From the NCBI GenBank assembly GCA_002778785.1, contig PEZS01000002.1, positions 1-64,000 of the forward strand: 64,000 nt of DNA, written 5' to 3'. The translations under genes were made by a program, and so were the position numbers. The notes beneath the pieces are model-generated. The model did not search any database, had not been told where the DNA came from, and saw only the letters and a list, made by a program, of their open reading frames with translations. The stretch is from Bdellovibrionales bacterium CG10_big_fil_rev_8_21_14_0_10_45_34. Its GTDB lineage: Bacteria; Bdellovibrionota; Bdellovibrionia; Bdellovibrionales; 1-14-0-10-45-34. Below, in pieces: positions 58,010 to 62,763 of this stretch (position 1 is its first letter; each line of letters opens with the position of its first letter).

Positions 58010-58816
58010 CTAAGGTGTGGCCTCTGGCTCTTCACTTGCCAACTTCTCAGCAGCTTTCTTATCTTTTATACTTTGAATTTTCTCTAAAAGAACCCTTTGA
58101 AAATCACCAAGATTATCGTACTGGTTCACGACGGCAAGAAAAGCTTCGCCGTTATCGGCTTTAGCAGATGAAACATTCACTCCCTTTGGTAGGTAGGCTT
58201 CAGTCACATAAGGAACTAGTCCCAGCTTTTTGAGCGCTTGATTATTAAAGGAAATTCCTTCTTTCTCCAGTGCAAGATTCGTTTGATAGGCTTTAACTTC
58301 GCTGAACAAAAGACTCGTGACGAAAAACTCCATTAACATTTCTTTTTCGTCGGAATCAACGTAACCAGCAATTCGTTTCTCTTTTATGGCCTTTGCCAAT
58401 TCCTCCATAGCTGCATTCACTTCTGGGTATTCTGCCATTACCGGCTTCATACTAATTTCGTCATAAATATGTGAGGTCTCATGGATGAGTGCATGAGCAA
58501 GTGAATCTGCATCAGCAGCTTGTGGCAAAAGAATCGAAAACGAGCCGTTTTCATTCTCTCTAATACCTCCTTGGTGACCTGATTCTGTTGCTGATTCGAT
58601 TCCATCGATACTGGCAATACTGCCGCTATTCTCTAAATTCTTAAGAACTGCAAGAGATTGGGCTCCAGTCGTTGTCGAGCTCAAGCGAGCCTTAGCTGCC
58701 GCCATCTTTTGCTCAAACGTTGGGGCTGGCTGCGGAGTCTGCTCATTTTTTTGACAACCCAGGAGACAGACGGTGCCGAATAGGGCCATAACACTCAGCG
58801 AATGTTTGATCTTCAT
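58010..58816 (-). CDS. metallopeptidase-like lipoprotein (probable internal start)
   Basis: The second part of the chimeric frame begins MKIKHSLSVMALFGTVCLLGC, a full lipoprotein signal with the lipid cysteine at residue 21. ATG 58816 has GTGAGGAAAA about seven bases before it, so independent translation of 268 residues is likely. HALIHETSHIYDE contains HExxH (HETSH) and would suit a zinc metallopeptidase. A distal glutamate ligand (EKEMLMEFF) is a candidate. It could act on the cell wall or on surface proteins. The family is not identified. Confidence 0.65.
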   Translation of the reverse strand: MKIKHSLSVMALFGTVCLLGCQKNEQTPQPAPTFEQKMAAAKARLSSTTTGAQSLAVLKNLENSGSIASIDGIESATESGHQGGIRENENGSFSILLPQAADADSLAHALIHETSHIYDEISMKPVMAEYPEVNAAMEELAKAIKEKRIAGYVDSDEKEMLMEFFVTSLLFSEVKAYQTNLALEKEGISFNNQALKKLGLVPYVTEAYLPKGVNVSSAKADNGEAFLAVVNQYDNLGDFQRVLLEKIQSIKDKKAAEKLASEEPEATP

Positions 58817-59725
58817 GCTATTTTCCTCACTTTCGCTGAACCTTTTGCAACGCTCGAGCATCGCGGTTGCTTCTTGAGAACTTCGCAAATATTTTTCTGC
58901 CAGCTCGTCGTTACCCAGTTTCTTTGCCAACTGGGCTCCCTTTTTCAACGCATTCCTCTGGACCAGAAGAGTCGCGTAGTGCCTTCCTAAAACCTCTTCC
59001 CAAATATCAAATGTAAGGTCATTTAGCTTTTCAGAAACGTAATTGAGGTCGACGGTGCTAAATTCAAAGAAGAGCGAGGGGATTTCCTCTTCTCTACCTT
59101 GCTCAATAAGATAGTCATACCATGCAAACATCGCCAACTGCCTGAGTGCTGGGCCGTCGTTTTGAGGCCTCCCCCAAGGATCCGTAAAGGGCTGCCCATC
59201 AAGATAGAATTTTGGTTGATGAAGATGAGCCTGATGAATCTTCGAAGTCGTTATGTAGCTTTTCACAAATTTCTCGATGTCAGTCGCTTGCTGTGCTGAC
59301 AGTTTCTGCAAAGTCATAAGCCGAATGAGTGATTTTACGACGAGTGCGCCATCCCTCACCCAGTGAAAACGATAAATCTGCACTTTCTTTTCTGTGGGAT
59401 CAAACGCTCCATGTGGTGCAGCCAAAATCGATCCCTCAAGATAGAATTCCCCCTCAGGAGGTTGCCACCTCTCGCCCTCGTTAATTCGTAGGTTGTAAAG
59501 CACTCTCGCTATCGAACTATGTAACCTGTGGTTTAGCTGTAGATCTAAAACTTCGACAAGAGGCAACTGAGCGCTTTGATCATTGGACTCTCCATCCGCC
59601 ACTTCGTTGCCACTTTTTTGATTCTTTTCGTGAGCAGGCAAACTGCTCGCCGAGAAAACGAGACCTATAAAAACGCCTACTGCAAATCTAGAAAGCGCAA
59701 GATTCAAAAGCCTTCGCCAGTTCAT
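58010..59725 (-). CDS. chimeric frame: truncated GH15 glucoamylase joined to a lipoprotein
   Basis: One uninterrupted 571-codon frame holds two unrelated parts. Residues about 1-303 are the N-terminal part of a GH15 glucoamylase with a signal peptide (VFIGLVFSASSLPAH). FHWVRDGALVVKSL and DPWGRPQNDGPALRQLAMFA are typical, and FDIWEEVLGRHYATL matches the general-acid segment (DLWEEVNG) of fungal enzymes. The second half of the GH15 barrel, with the catalytic base, is missing. Codon 304 begins a complete lipoprotein with its own signal peptide. The fusion may be a deletion scar. The ATG at 59725 is preferred over a GTG at 59737. Confidence 0.75.
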   Translation of the reverse strand: MNWRRLLNLALSRFAVGVFIGLVFSASSLPAHEKNQKSGNEVADGESNDQSAQLPLVEVLDLQLNHRLHSSIARVLYNLRINEGERWQPPEGEFYLEGSILAAPHGAFDPTEKKVQIYRFHWVRDGALVVKSLIRLMTLQKLSAQQATDIEKFVKSYITTSKIHQAHLHQPKFYLDGQPFTDPWGRPQNDGPALRQLAMFAWYDYLIEQGREEEIPSLFFEFSTVDLNYVSEKLNDLTFDIWEEVLGRHYATLLVQRNALKKGAQLAKKLGNDELAEKYLRSSQEATAMLERCKRFSESEENSMKIKHSLSVMALFGTVCLLGCQKNEQTPQPAPTFEQKMAAAKARLSSTTTGAQSLAVLKNLENSGSIASIDGIESATESGHQGGIRENENGSFSILLPQAADADSLAHALIHETSHIYDEISMKPVMAEYPEVNAAMEELAKAIKEKRIAGYVDSDEKEMLMEFFVTSLLFSEVKAYQTNLALEKEGISFNNQALKKLGLVPYVTEAYLPKGVNVSSAKADNGEAFLAVVNQYDNLGDFQRVLLEKIQSIKDKKAAEKLASEEPEATP

Positions 59726-59974
59726 AAGGAAATCCACCCCTTGTTGCGGTGGCTTGATATATCCAAGAATTTTGCTTCCGGGTACTGTAAAGGTTTCAAT
59801 CCCATTTTTGTCGTTTCGTCAGTCTCGCAGAAAACTCCGACTCTAGAGATCTCGAAGTCCGGGAGATGGGAACTCGAAAAGAGGCTCGAAAAATTTGTAT
59901 TTTTTTCAAGGCAGGTATCCCAAAGCGTTCAAAATAGGGTTTCAGGTCCGAAGTCATGATACTTTAGCCCTCAC

Positions 59975-60793
59975 ATGAGCACTTTTTCAAATATGAGCAC
60001 AGCTAAAGAGATAGGCCCCATCTTCGATCGTGGCAATCGACTTGTAGACAACACCAACCACCGAGCCGAAGTCCGATCATCTTTAAACAACACTCAGCGC
60101 CAGGCCGAAGGCCAATCTTCTGTAAACTGGGATAATCTCAAAAATAGCTTGGATCTTTTAGGAAATGCTTTAAGGCATCTACCCCTCAAGCACCATTACT
60201 ACAGCGAACGAAGTGTAATGAACTACCTCGAGCATCCCATCGAGATTCAGCGCGCCGTAAGAGAGCGCCTCACTTCGTACTCACACCTCATTAACGAAAT
60301 TGTACGCGAAAGAGCGGACATTACGAACAATACATTCGTCTTGAAGCGATGGCTCCAAAACTTAAAGCTTTCTACCCTCAATGAAATCTACGAACGCATC
60401 GAAGATGATAATATCGTAGAGGTCTACAACGCCCAAGGTGTTCAGGTATTTAGGAGTATTCAATTTTTCTACTTTTGCAATTATGATTTACTCGACGTAG
60501 AAACGAGAGCGTGGAATGAGCTCTACGAGAGGCATGAACTAATTAACAACAGGCTTTTTGAAATTGTGTATGATCTATTTGCCAGTCCGAACAAGGTCTT
60601 TAATATCGATGTGCCTCCTCACCCGATGAGAGAAGTTTTTTCTGATTTTCGGCAAGTATTTCGGATTGAGCACAACTGCATGGCTCCGGTATATAATTCA
60701 GACTGCAGCCTATTTGGATTTGTGAGCAGCCAAAAGGCCACGACGATAACTCAAAACGATCCAGAAGATTCATTTCTATTTTTGAAAAGGTGA
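59975..60793 (+). CDS. unknown protein coupled to an XRE regulator
   Basis: This 272-residue soluble protein is mainly helical in the centre (about 50-200), with many Tyr, Arg and His residues. The C-terminal third is less regular and ends at a stop overlapping the next gene's GTG by four bases. I recognise no family. ATG 59975 and ATG 59993 are both possible; neither has a ribosome binding site. The tight coupling to a DNA-binding protein suggests a partner or sensor, which is inference. Confidence 0.6.
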   Translation: MSTFSNMSTAKEIGPIFDRGNRLVDNTNHRAEVRSSLNNTQRQAEGQSSVNWDNLKNSLDLLGNALRHLPLKHHYYSERSVMNYLEHPIEIQRAVRERLTSYSHLINEIVRERADITNNTFVLKRWLQNLKLSTLNEIYERIEDDNIVEVYNAQGVQVFRSIQFFYFCNYDLLDVETRAWNELYERHELINNRLFEIVYDLFASPNKVFNIDVPPHPMREVFSDFRQVFRIEHNCMAPVYNSDCSLFGFVSSQKATTITQNDPEDSFLFLKR

Positions 60794-61131
60794 AAAGAGT
60801 GAAGAAAAAACGAACCGTTAAAACAGGAAGAAGCAGTGTGGTGCAAAAGGCCAAGCAGAAAAAGTGGAAAACTCTTGGGAACTACATCCGAAAGAAAAGA
60901 ATTGAATCAGGTTACTCTCAGGGTTCTGCCATGCGTCTGATCAATTCGCGGGCAACGACTCCGCAGTATTTGTCGAATATGGAGAGAGGGATTTGTGCAA
61001 TCCCAGATGATATTCTGCGAAAGATGATTTCTCTTTATAAGATCGACACAGACGAGTTTATCGAAGAGCTGCTTTCGATCGAAAAAAGCTGCCTCTACGA
61101 CACGTTTAAAATTAAGAGCCGGGCCCAGTGA
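60790..61131 (+). CDS. XRE-family DNA-binding protein
   Basis: This 113-residue protein has a basic leader (KRVKKKRTVKTGRSS) and an XRE-type helix-turn-helix (LGNYIRKKRIESGYSQG, then TPQYLSNMERGICAIPDDIL). A helical C-terminus follows (YKIDTDEFIEELLSIE). The spacing in the recognition region (INSRATTPQYLSN) is unusual by its short insert. The GTG start overlaps the upstream TGA (GTGA). It may regulate the two-gene unit or a distant target. Confidence 0.75.
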   Translation: MKRVKKKRTVKTGRSSVVQKAKQKKWKTLGNYIRKKRIESGYSQGSAMRLINSRATTPQYLSNMERGICAIPDDILRKMISLYKIDTDEFIEELLSIEKSCLYDTFKIKSRAQ

Positions 61132-61222: not shown

Positions 61223-61349
61223 GACTTAAATAGCCTACAACTTGAGCCTTTAAGACTTAAATAGCCTACAACTTGAGCCTTTAAGACTTGAATAGCCTAA
61301 TCCTTTTATACCTAAGTATTTAAGACTTAAATAGCCTGCGCCTTTTAAA
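61223..61349. repeat. 31-bp tandem repeats between convergent genes
   Basis: Two perfect 31-bp units (61223-61253 and 61254-61284), starting GACTTAAATAGCC, are followed by a diverged 39-bp unit (61285-61323) and a shorter one (61324-61349). The next bases run into the 3' end of the minus-strand gene, whose stop region (AGCCTCTAAGTCTT on the minus strand) resembles the unit (AGGCTATTTAAGTCTT). The block lies between the convergent XRE and di-iron-protein genes. Confidence 0.9.
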
Positions 61350-61352
61350 GAC

Positions 61353-62048
61353 TTAGAGGCTGAGTTCGCGTCCTTTGTTGGCAACTTTTGAGTCGCCTAA
61401 AGCCAAATCTGCGATCTCATACATAAACTGATTGTAGGAATGCTCTGCTATCGCCATTGCTTTGCACACTCTGGCCTCCCTTACGGCCGAAAGCGATTCG
61501 AGAGTTTTCAGCGCTTTGTCAGCATGTCCCTCACCGGCGTGACCGGTGTCTTCTTCAACATGCACGATCATAAAAGTGCTGGCGTCGCGGCCATACTGTT
61601 TAACAAGCCGATCTGTTACTGGCGTACCAATGACTGTCGACAGACCCTCCAAATAGAGCACGCTTCCAAAAAGACAGATTGGATCTTCTCTTTCAATTAG
61701 GTAGTAAATAGAGTGATAGAATTGAGCAATACTCGGCATTTCCGGAAAGTCATTGAGATCAAACCCTAGCTTTCTCAGATCACTAAGAGCCAATCTTTCA
61801 TGAGCTTTTTCTTCTGCCGCATGCTGCATGCAGCGAAAGTGAAAAACATCATCTTCTATTCCAAAATTTGCACCAGCCAATGCGATCACGCGAGAAGCGT
61901 GACACAAGAAGTGATACATCTCACCCAACCAAAGCCCGTAATAGAGTTTATTTTCCCAAGGGGCATCCATAAACACTTTTGCTCCGGCGGCTACTGACTT
62001 TTCGTACTGCTCGCTCAAAGATTTAGAGTACGGCTTCACTAAGTTCAT
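61353..62048 (-). CDS. haem-oxygenase-like di-iron oxidase (HDO) family protein
   Basis: This 231-residue all-helical protein resembles iron-containing redox enzymes of the TenA/haem-oxygenase fold (HDO family). Candidate metal ligands are HAAEEKAHE (E79/E80, H83), YLEGLS (E134) and HVEEDTGH. The last has the H-x3-D-x2-H spacing (H163, D167, H170) typical of HDO proteins such as CADD. E43 and H50 are alternatives. HDO enzymes oxidise or cleave C-N and C-C bonds, often in small-molecule synthesis. The ATG has AAGGGAG upstream within the partner gene and overlaps its end by 26 bases. Confidence 0.75.
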   Translation of the reverse strand: MNLVKPYSKSLSEQYEKSVAAGAKVFMDAPWENKLYYGLWLGEMYHFLCHASRVIALAGANFGIEDDVFHFRCMQHAAEEKAHERLALSDLRKLGFDLNDFPEMPSIAQFYHSIYYLIEREDPICLFGSVLYLEGLSTVIGTPVTDRLVKQYGRDASTFMIVHVEEDTGHAGEGHADKALKTLESLSAVREARVCKAMAIAEHSYNQFMYEIADLALGDSKVANKGRELSL

Positions 62049-62763
62049 AACTGATTTCTCCCTTTGTTTGTTTTTTCATACTGTTTGGAATTGCTATAGT
62101 ATTTACATCCGAACTAATGAGACGGCTAAAAACATCTTTGTACTTCGAAAGGGGATAAGTAATTACTTTCTCGCTTTCATACACGACCAAGTTTGCAAAG
62201 GTGTTGGCATATGGAACATCTTCTTTCATTGAAGTTGTTCCATATTTGGCGACAAGTTTATGGAGACCAACATCATTCCTAACAATCGAAATCATCTTAG
62301 GATGACCTAGGTCCTTGAATATTTTCACCACGAAGGTGTGAAACAGATAAATCGAAGGAAGATCATAAACCTTTAACCGATACCCCTTGTCGAGCGTGAA
62401 TCCACTTGCGACGACAATACGCTCGGTGTCGCCAAACCCTGCGATGGAATCGCGATCCCATACTGATAGATAGGAGTCGTCTCGCGAGAAAAGGTAATTC
62501 ATGTCGAGAAATCTCATGCAGGCAGTGGCTATGCACTTACCGTAGAGATCCAATGATAAGATGAGGCCCTGACGACAGAAGTTGTCTGAATATGCAGTTT
62601 CTGTTGCCTTGAATTGATTGAGCTCTCGGTACGCTTCAGTCCAGTTTTGCCTCCAAAGCTGATACGAGGATTCTAAGAAATTTTTGGTCTTAGGATTGCC
62701 ATCAAAGGGAATCGCACTAAACCTCAATCCGTGGTAGAGCTTATTAATCTCCGAACTTTCCAT
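62023..62763 (-). CDS. N-acyltransferase-like (FeeM/autoinducer synthase-like) protein
   Basis: This 246-residue protein has the layout of the GNAT-fold N-acyl amino-acid synthase (FeeM) and acyl-homoserine-lactone synthase group. SYQLWRQNWTEAYRELNQF is near residue 35, and GLILSLDLYGKCIATACMRF and FGDTERIVVASGFTLDKGYR are in the core. The conserved Glu-Arg (DTERIV) fits the autoinducer-synthase-like fold. Substrates are unknown. It is first in a two-gene unit with the di-iron protein. No Shine-Dalgarno sequence precedes the ATG. Confidence 0.6.
   Translation of the reverse strand: MESSEINKLYHGLRFSAIPFDGNPKTKNFLESSYQLWRQNWTEAYRELNQFKATETAYSDNFCRQGLILSLDLYGKCIATACMRFLDMNYLFSRDDSYLSVWDRDSIAGFGDTERIVVASGFTLDKGYRLKVYDLPSIYLFHTFVVKIFKDLGHPKMISIVRNDVGLHKLVAKYGTTSMKEDVPYANTFANLVVYESEKVITYPLSKYKDVFSRLISSDVNTIAIPNSMKKQTKGEISYELSEAVL

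Follow-up and report, generated by a model that had tools for sequence, protein, structure and literature searches.

A conserved acyltransferase–oxidase gene pair with adjoining PAS and XRE genes in Bdellovibrionota, a candidate cassette for small-molecule signalling

Introduction

AHL synthases and FeeM transfer an acyl group to an amine, and in LuxI/LuxR systems (BjaI, LasI, EsaI, MesI) the receptor LuxR is an autoinducer-binding domain fused to a helix-turn-helix (HTH) domain. Acyl-oxazolones are made by TyzABC (M. tuberculosis) and OxzAB (Pseudoalteromonas rubra), in which an N-acylase resembling FeeM and BjaI stands beside an oxidase acting on the N-acyl amino acid (PMC10404671); this oxidase is flavin-dependent, of the nitroreductase type, and is partnered by a ThiF-type cyclase. 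Haem-oxygenase-like di-metal oxidases (HDOs) include UndA, BesC, SznF and MboA, and a set of three histidine and three carboxylate ligands has been described for them (PMC13108848).

The window analysed here is the first 64,000 nucleotides of contig PEZS01000002.1 of Bdellovibrionales bacterium CG10_big_fil_rev_8_21_14_0_10_45_34 (GCA_002778785.1). A preliminary description had placed a FeeM/autoinducer-synthase-like protein and an HDO-family protein at 61353–62763, and had suggested that the two make and oxidise an N-acylated signal or lipid by a pairing without a described pathway. Consistent with the latter statement, our searches of the open-access literature found no paper on an acyltransferase–HDO pairing or on a Bdellovibrio autoinducer synthase. 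The described system closest in logic is TyzA/TyzBC, where a flavin oxidase works with a FeeM-like N-acylase.

Results and Discussion

Organisation of the locus

Both genes were confirmed as open reading frames (ORFs; 62763–62023 and 62048–61353), together with the 26-nt overlap that had been reported between them. The range described earlier holds the acyltransferase and HDO genes but misses the other half of the cassette, a PAS-domain gene and an XRE-type regulator gene at 59975–61131. The features of the locus are as follows.

59975–60793, plus strand: PAS-domain protein, 272 aa (conservation, AlphaFold2 model, Foldseek); proposed receptor of the product
60790–61131, plus strand: XRE-type helix-turn-helix regulator, 113 aa (Pfam HTH_3); proposed DNA-binding output
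61223–61299, no strand: 31-bp direct repeats, 2.5 copies, with degenerate copies on to about 61345; possible regulator sites
61353–62048, minus strand: HDO, 231 aa, ATG start (ORF, Pfam PF14518, structural relatives); proposed oxidative tailoring enzyme
62023–62763, minus strand: acyltransferase, 246 aa, ATG start (ORF call); proposed signal or N-acyl synthase
62058–62062, minus strand: Shine-Dalgarno-like GGGAG ahead of the HDO ATG, within the acyltransferase gene (sequence reading)
62956–66171 of the contig, minus strand: RND permease, upstream neighbour of the acyltransferase on the same strand

The GGGAG in front of the HDO start was rated good or convincing as a Shine-Dalgarno sequence. 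The stop of the PAS gene and the start of the XRE gene overlap by 4 nt, and the PAS and HDO genes are convergent. The repeats, of which 2.5 copies are near-perfect and the others degenerate, sit between the two convergent gene pairs (XRE on one side, HDO on the other) and occur only once in the window's genome. No known RNA families were found at the locus, and promoter and terminator scans there were not better than shuffles.

When the neighbours of the window acyltransferase were examined by Pfam, the HDO gene adjoined it and the others were the PAS/XRE genes and the RND gene. The RND exporter indeed lies upstream on the same strand, as had been noted, but it was rejected as part of the system, because it is not conserved beside other cassettes.

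A separate observation concerns 58010–59737 (minus strand), where a single ORF comprises a glycoside hydrolase 15-like part and what resembles another lipoprotein, the latter having a signal peptide of its own (internal MKIKHSLSVMALFGTVCLLGC). This ORF is possibly an in-frame fusion of two genes.

Fold and family of the acyltransferase

The 246-aa acyltransferase gave zero matches in Pfam and NCBIfam, including their LuxI and FeeM sequence models, and curated models for FeeM and for N-acyl amino acid synthases were likewise unmatched. PF00765 was not among the families matched by 36 members of its family. Since PDB sequence-profile searches with the acyltransferase and PAS families yielded noise only, the folds of both were checked by structure prediction. 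In the AlphaFold2 model of the acyltransferase, built with 12 relatives, pLDDT was 81 and pTM 0.81. The ten best PDB matches of this model in Foldseek were exclusively the AHL synthases BjaI, LasI and MesI and FeeM, with E values of 3e-7 for BjaI (5w8a), 2e-6 for LasI and 6e-6 to 1e-5 for FeeM (2G0B; TM-score normalised to the target, 0.60–0.65), whereas RpaI, TofI and EsaI ranked lower, among ordinary GNATs. The protein is therefore modelled as a GNAT-like enzyme with the autoinducer-synthase (LuxI/FeeM) fold. The earlier description of it as FeeM/autoinducer-synthase-like thus agrees with structure prediction, in which BjaI, LasI, MesI and FeeM came ahead of ordinary GNATs, and a first protein lacking any GNAT/autoinducer fold is not what was found.

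Membership of LuxI by sequence was rejected, because PF00765 was matched neither by the family nor in the window's genome; this genome also had no match to the LuxR autoinducer-binding domain (PF03472). Canonical LuxI (PF00765) was detected in only 2 of the 141 genomes of the order (L069 in G133 and L070 in G132). Homologues of the cassette acyltransferase were detected by profile search in 94 of the 141. Both carriers of PF00765 belong to one genus and have no cassette acyltransferase. With FeeM, the cassette enzyme shares the fold, the size and the presumed N-acylation of an amine, but it differs in being unmatched in Pfam and NCBIfam, in having an HDO as its partner and in the attached PAS and XRE genes. 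In strand 4, the window protein has a serine where most relatives have a glutamate, and no clear link was found between this difference and the presence of the HDO.

The oxidase and its relatives

The assignment of the second protein to the HDO family was upheld. It matched Pfam PF14518 (E = 1.6e-9), and the profile of its family matched the solved and characterised HDO MboA (E = 7.8e-6) and PDB 3DDE (E = 1.6e-19). The ligand columns E80, H83, E134, H163 and D167 and the final histidine were invariant across 33 relatives. By spacing, this final histidine is H170; the aligner gave H175, owing to a 5-aa insertion in the window protein. As read from its sequence, the 231-aa protein thus carries the six-ligand set E80, H83, E134, H163, D167 and H170, with three histidines and three carboxylates. 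It shares PF14518, these ligands and the MboA profile match with the described enzymes, but belongs to a separate subgroup that is linked to the acyltransferase.

A further relative was found in a conserved operon of T_hemolysin, AMP-binding enzyme, HDO, SDR and TPR genes (L122, L123 and L124; plasmids of Vibrio, Citrobacter and Salinivibrio), on whose product no paper was found in the open-access literature. This operon is also compact, and its HDO is a clear relative of the cassette HDO (hhalign probability 99.5%), but it includes an adenylating enzyme and an SDR, and no PAS/XRE pair was seen in it. Homology of T_hemolysin to the acyltransferase was unsupported by hhalign, a comparison of low power with only 3 sequences.

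These relatives raise the question of whether the locus is a small secondary-metabolite cluster, producing a toxin or antibiotic against prey or competitors under local regulators. HDOs are common as natural-product enzymes (PMC13108848), MboA is among the relatives and a related HDO occurs in the gammaproteobacterial operon above. However, the cassette has no NRPS/PKS, no resistance gene and no conserved exporter, and its minimal core of synthase, oxidase and regulators is spread over much of a phylum. We therefore regard a toxin or antibiotic cluster as improbable.

Conservation of the acyltransferase–HDO pair

Genome mining for the two genes showed that the pair is strongly conserved. Among 60 relatives of the same order, the acyltransferase adjoined nearly every HDO match. 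Profile searches of the order (141 genomes) placed an acyltransferase homologue within 600 bp of 94 out of the 104 close HDO homologues; it was on the same strand in 89 cases, and in 81 of these it lay upstream. Chance would be expected to give about 0.1 such adjacencies, an estimate to be read with the relatedness of the genomes in mind. At least two of the ten unpaired close HDOs were at contig edges. As an internal control, 14 of the 16 more distant HDOs of the same genomes had no acyltransferase beside them, and the other two were fragments of true members; the link is therefore specific to this HDO subgroup. Outside the order, all 19 genomes of Bdellovibrionota with a strong HDO match had the acyltransferase beside it, with one intervening gene in two of them. 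A collection scan with a narrower HDO alignment returned 12 loci, and the named organisms were all Bdellovibrionota (Bdellovibrio, Bdellovibrionales, Bacteriovoracaceae and Bacteriovorax). At one locus (L112:3732–5174, G199), a histidine kinase gene on the opposite strand lies between the acyltransferase and HDO genes.

Two different fusions of the acyltransferase and the HDO were also found (G048, 455 aa; G068, 458 aa). Because most genomes have the two genes side by side and some have them joined in one, their products very probably act in consecutive or cooperating steps. Gene overlaps are common in bacteria, and the two genes might in principle be adjacent by chance or co-transcribed without a common pathway; the frequency of adjacency within the order, its consistency in the genomes outside it and the fusions refute this explanation, which we consider almost certainly wrong.

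Exchange of the oxidase

The HDO is not the sole oxidase found beside the acyltransferase. Three loci (L114, L117 and L120) have a membrane fatty-acid desaturase in its place, and another (L111) has both an HDO and a fatty-acid desaturase; at L045, a fatty-acid desaturase family protein adjoins the acyltransferase. An FAD-dependent oxidase adjoins it at L118, where the HDO is absent, and at L101:1565–3877 (G272), which also has no HDO, the acyltransferase is fused to an FAD_binding_4 oxidase in a protein of 770 aa. Since different oxidases fill the same slot, this exchange suggests that its key feature is the oxidation of the product or substrate of the acyltransferase.

PAS and XRE genes

Neighbour clustering recovered the family of the PAS protein (window ORF 59975–60793) in 42 of 54 short loci. 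It was present at all 12 named loci and in 97 of the 141 genomes of the order. The AlphaFold2 model of the 272-aa protein (pLDDT 80) shows helices at the N terminus and a PAS domain at the C terminus, and in Foldseek it matched the PAS domain of NifL (2gj3, E = 3e-4), PAS-B of HIF2a/ARNT and many other PAS domains. Pfam matches to PAS were weak and limited to 3 of 14 relatives, with none for the window protein; the PAS fold is thus assigned from the model. A weak match of one relative to the LuxR autoinducer-binding domain was not counted as evidence.

The adjoining 113-aa protein matched Pfam HTH_3 above the family cut-off (E = 3.1e-5). Among the 12 named loci, the XRE gene was found at only seven. 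At all 21 loci with both genes, it was close to the PAS gene and on the same strand, in either order. No PAS–XRE fusion was found among the loci fetched. In the complete genome G031, the PAS, acyltransferase and HDO genes all run in one direction. All four genes are present on plasmid pBdHM1 of Bdellovibrio sp. HM001, each annotated as a hypothetical protein, and the cassette is therefore self-contained and can travel as a unit.

PAS paralogues numbered up to eight per genome among the 141 genomes, and among the matches listed, only 72 of 150 PAS copies had an acyltransferase or HDO gene no more than 2 kb away. An orphan XRE–PAS pair without a synthase occurs at L105. PAS paralogues thus often occur away from any synthase, a pattern like that of LuxR solos. 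A receptor cluster of three adjacent PAS paralogues and an XRE gene, with no synthase, was observed at L109:2717–4863 (G048).

The acyltransferase and PAS proteins evolve faster than the HDO. Among 40 complete cassettes, the acyltransferase–PAS distances were correlated given the HDO (partial r = 0.43, p < 0.001; strongly diverged sequences, without species-tree control), and the corresponding partial correlations were smaller for acyltransferase–HDO (0.25) and HDO–PAS (0.24). Because of saturation and the lack of species-tree control, this co-variation is taken as supportive only.

Oxygen, redox and light are also detected by PAS domains, and several such sensor proteins are among the Foldseek matches of the window protein. 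The main rival to a signalling role accordingly holds that the acyltransferase and HDO produce an oxidised N-acyl lipid retained by the cell, such as an N-acyl amino acid or an acyl-oxazolone-like compound, and that PAS and XRE only regulate its synthesis by oxygen, redox or membrane state. It would fit the frequent role of PAS domains as oxygen or redox sensors and the fatty-acid desaturases of some cassettes, as well as the precedent of TyzA of M. tuberculosis, a FeeM/BjaI-like N-acylase that acts with a flavin oxidase to give acyl-oxazolones (PMC10404671). Three observations argue against it: PAS paralogues occur apart from synthases; the co-variation of synthase and PAS beyond that with the HDO fits synthase–receptor specificity better than generic redox sensing; and the synthase and PAS proteins diverge quickly compared with the HDO, which would be unusual for a structural lipid enzyme. 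We thus consider a cell-retained lipid unlikely, though less so than a toxin or antibiotic.

Proposed signalling cassette

Based on the genes and their conservation as a cassette, the modelled folds, the metal-ligand set, the exchange of oxidases and the synthase–PAS co-variation, we favour, with some reserve, the interpretation that the four genes form a self-contained Bdellovibrionota cassette for a diffusible small-molecule signal, which would work in the manner of LuxI/LuxR with another receptor and with oxidative tailoring. Against it count the failure of the acyltransferase to match LuxI and FeeM sequence models, the strand-4 serine of the window copy, the other stimuli that PAS domains sense, the recovery of XRE genes at only part of the named loci and the lack of a conserved exporter. 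With acyl-ACP or acyl-CoA as donor, the acyltransferase would acylate an amine, and the HDO would oxidise the acyl or amine part of the product, or of its precursor, with O2 at its di-metal centre. The finished molecule would then be bound by the PAS protein, which, by interacting with the adjacent XRE regulator, would alter gene expression; the molecule itself would be exported and used between cells. We infer that the pair makes and oxidises an N-acylated signal, a proposal of the preliminary description that is strengthened by the neighbouring PAS and XRE genes, by the exchange of oxidases and by the way synthase and PAS co-vary.

The likeness to LuxI/LuxR extends to the synthase fold, as modelled, to the presence of a ligand-sensor-like protein and an HTH regulator, and to sensor paralogues without a synthase, which recall LuxR solos. 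In contrast, the cassette synthase fails PF00765, sensor and HTH are separate PAS and XRE-type proteins, and an oxidase belongs to the core. The cassette would thus work like LuxI/LuxR, yet it is not a member of that system. With TyzABC and OxzAB, it shares the placement of an N-acylase of the FeeM/BjaI type beside an oxidase, but the oxidase adjoining the acyltransferase here is an HDO, and we saw no PAS/XRE pair described for those systems.

Whether these predators thereby have a new class of cell–cell signalling is, in our judgement, evenly balanced. Such a class would combine an enzyme of the autoinducer-synthase fold, an exchangeable oxidase (HDO, desaturase or FAD-dependent) that gives the signal its identity, and a new family of PAS receptors with XRE regulators, including unlinked receptors that listen in. 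If true, enzymes of the autoinducer-synthase fold would gain an oxidative tailoring step, and a kind of receptor without sequence relation to LuxR would be recognised. To our knowledge, communication among predatory bacteria of this order is little understood, and a cassette of synthase, oxidase, sensor and regulator would open it to direct testing.
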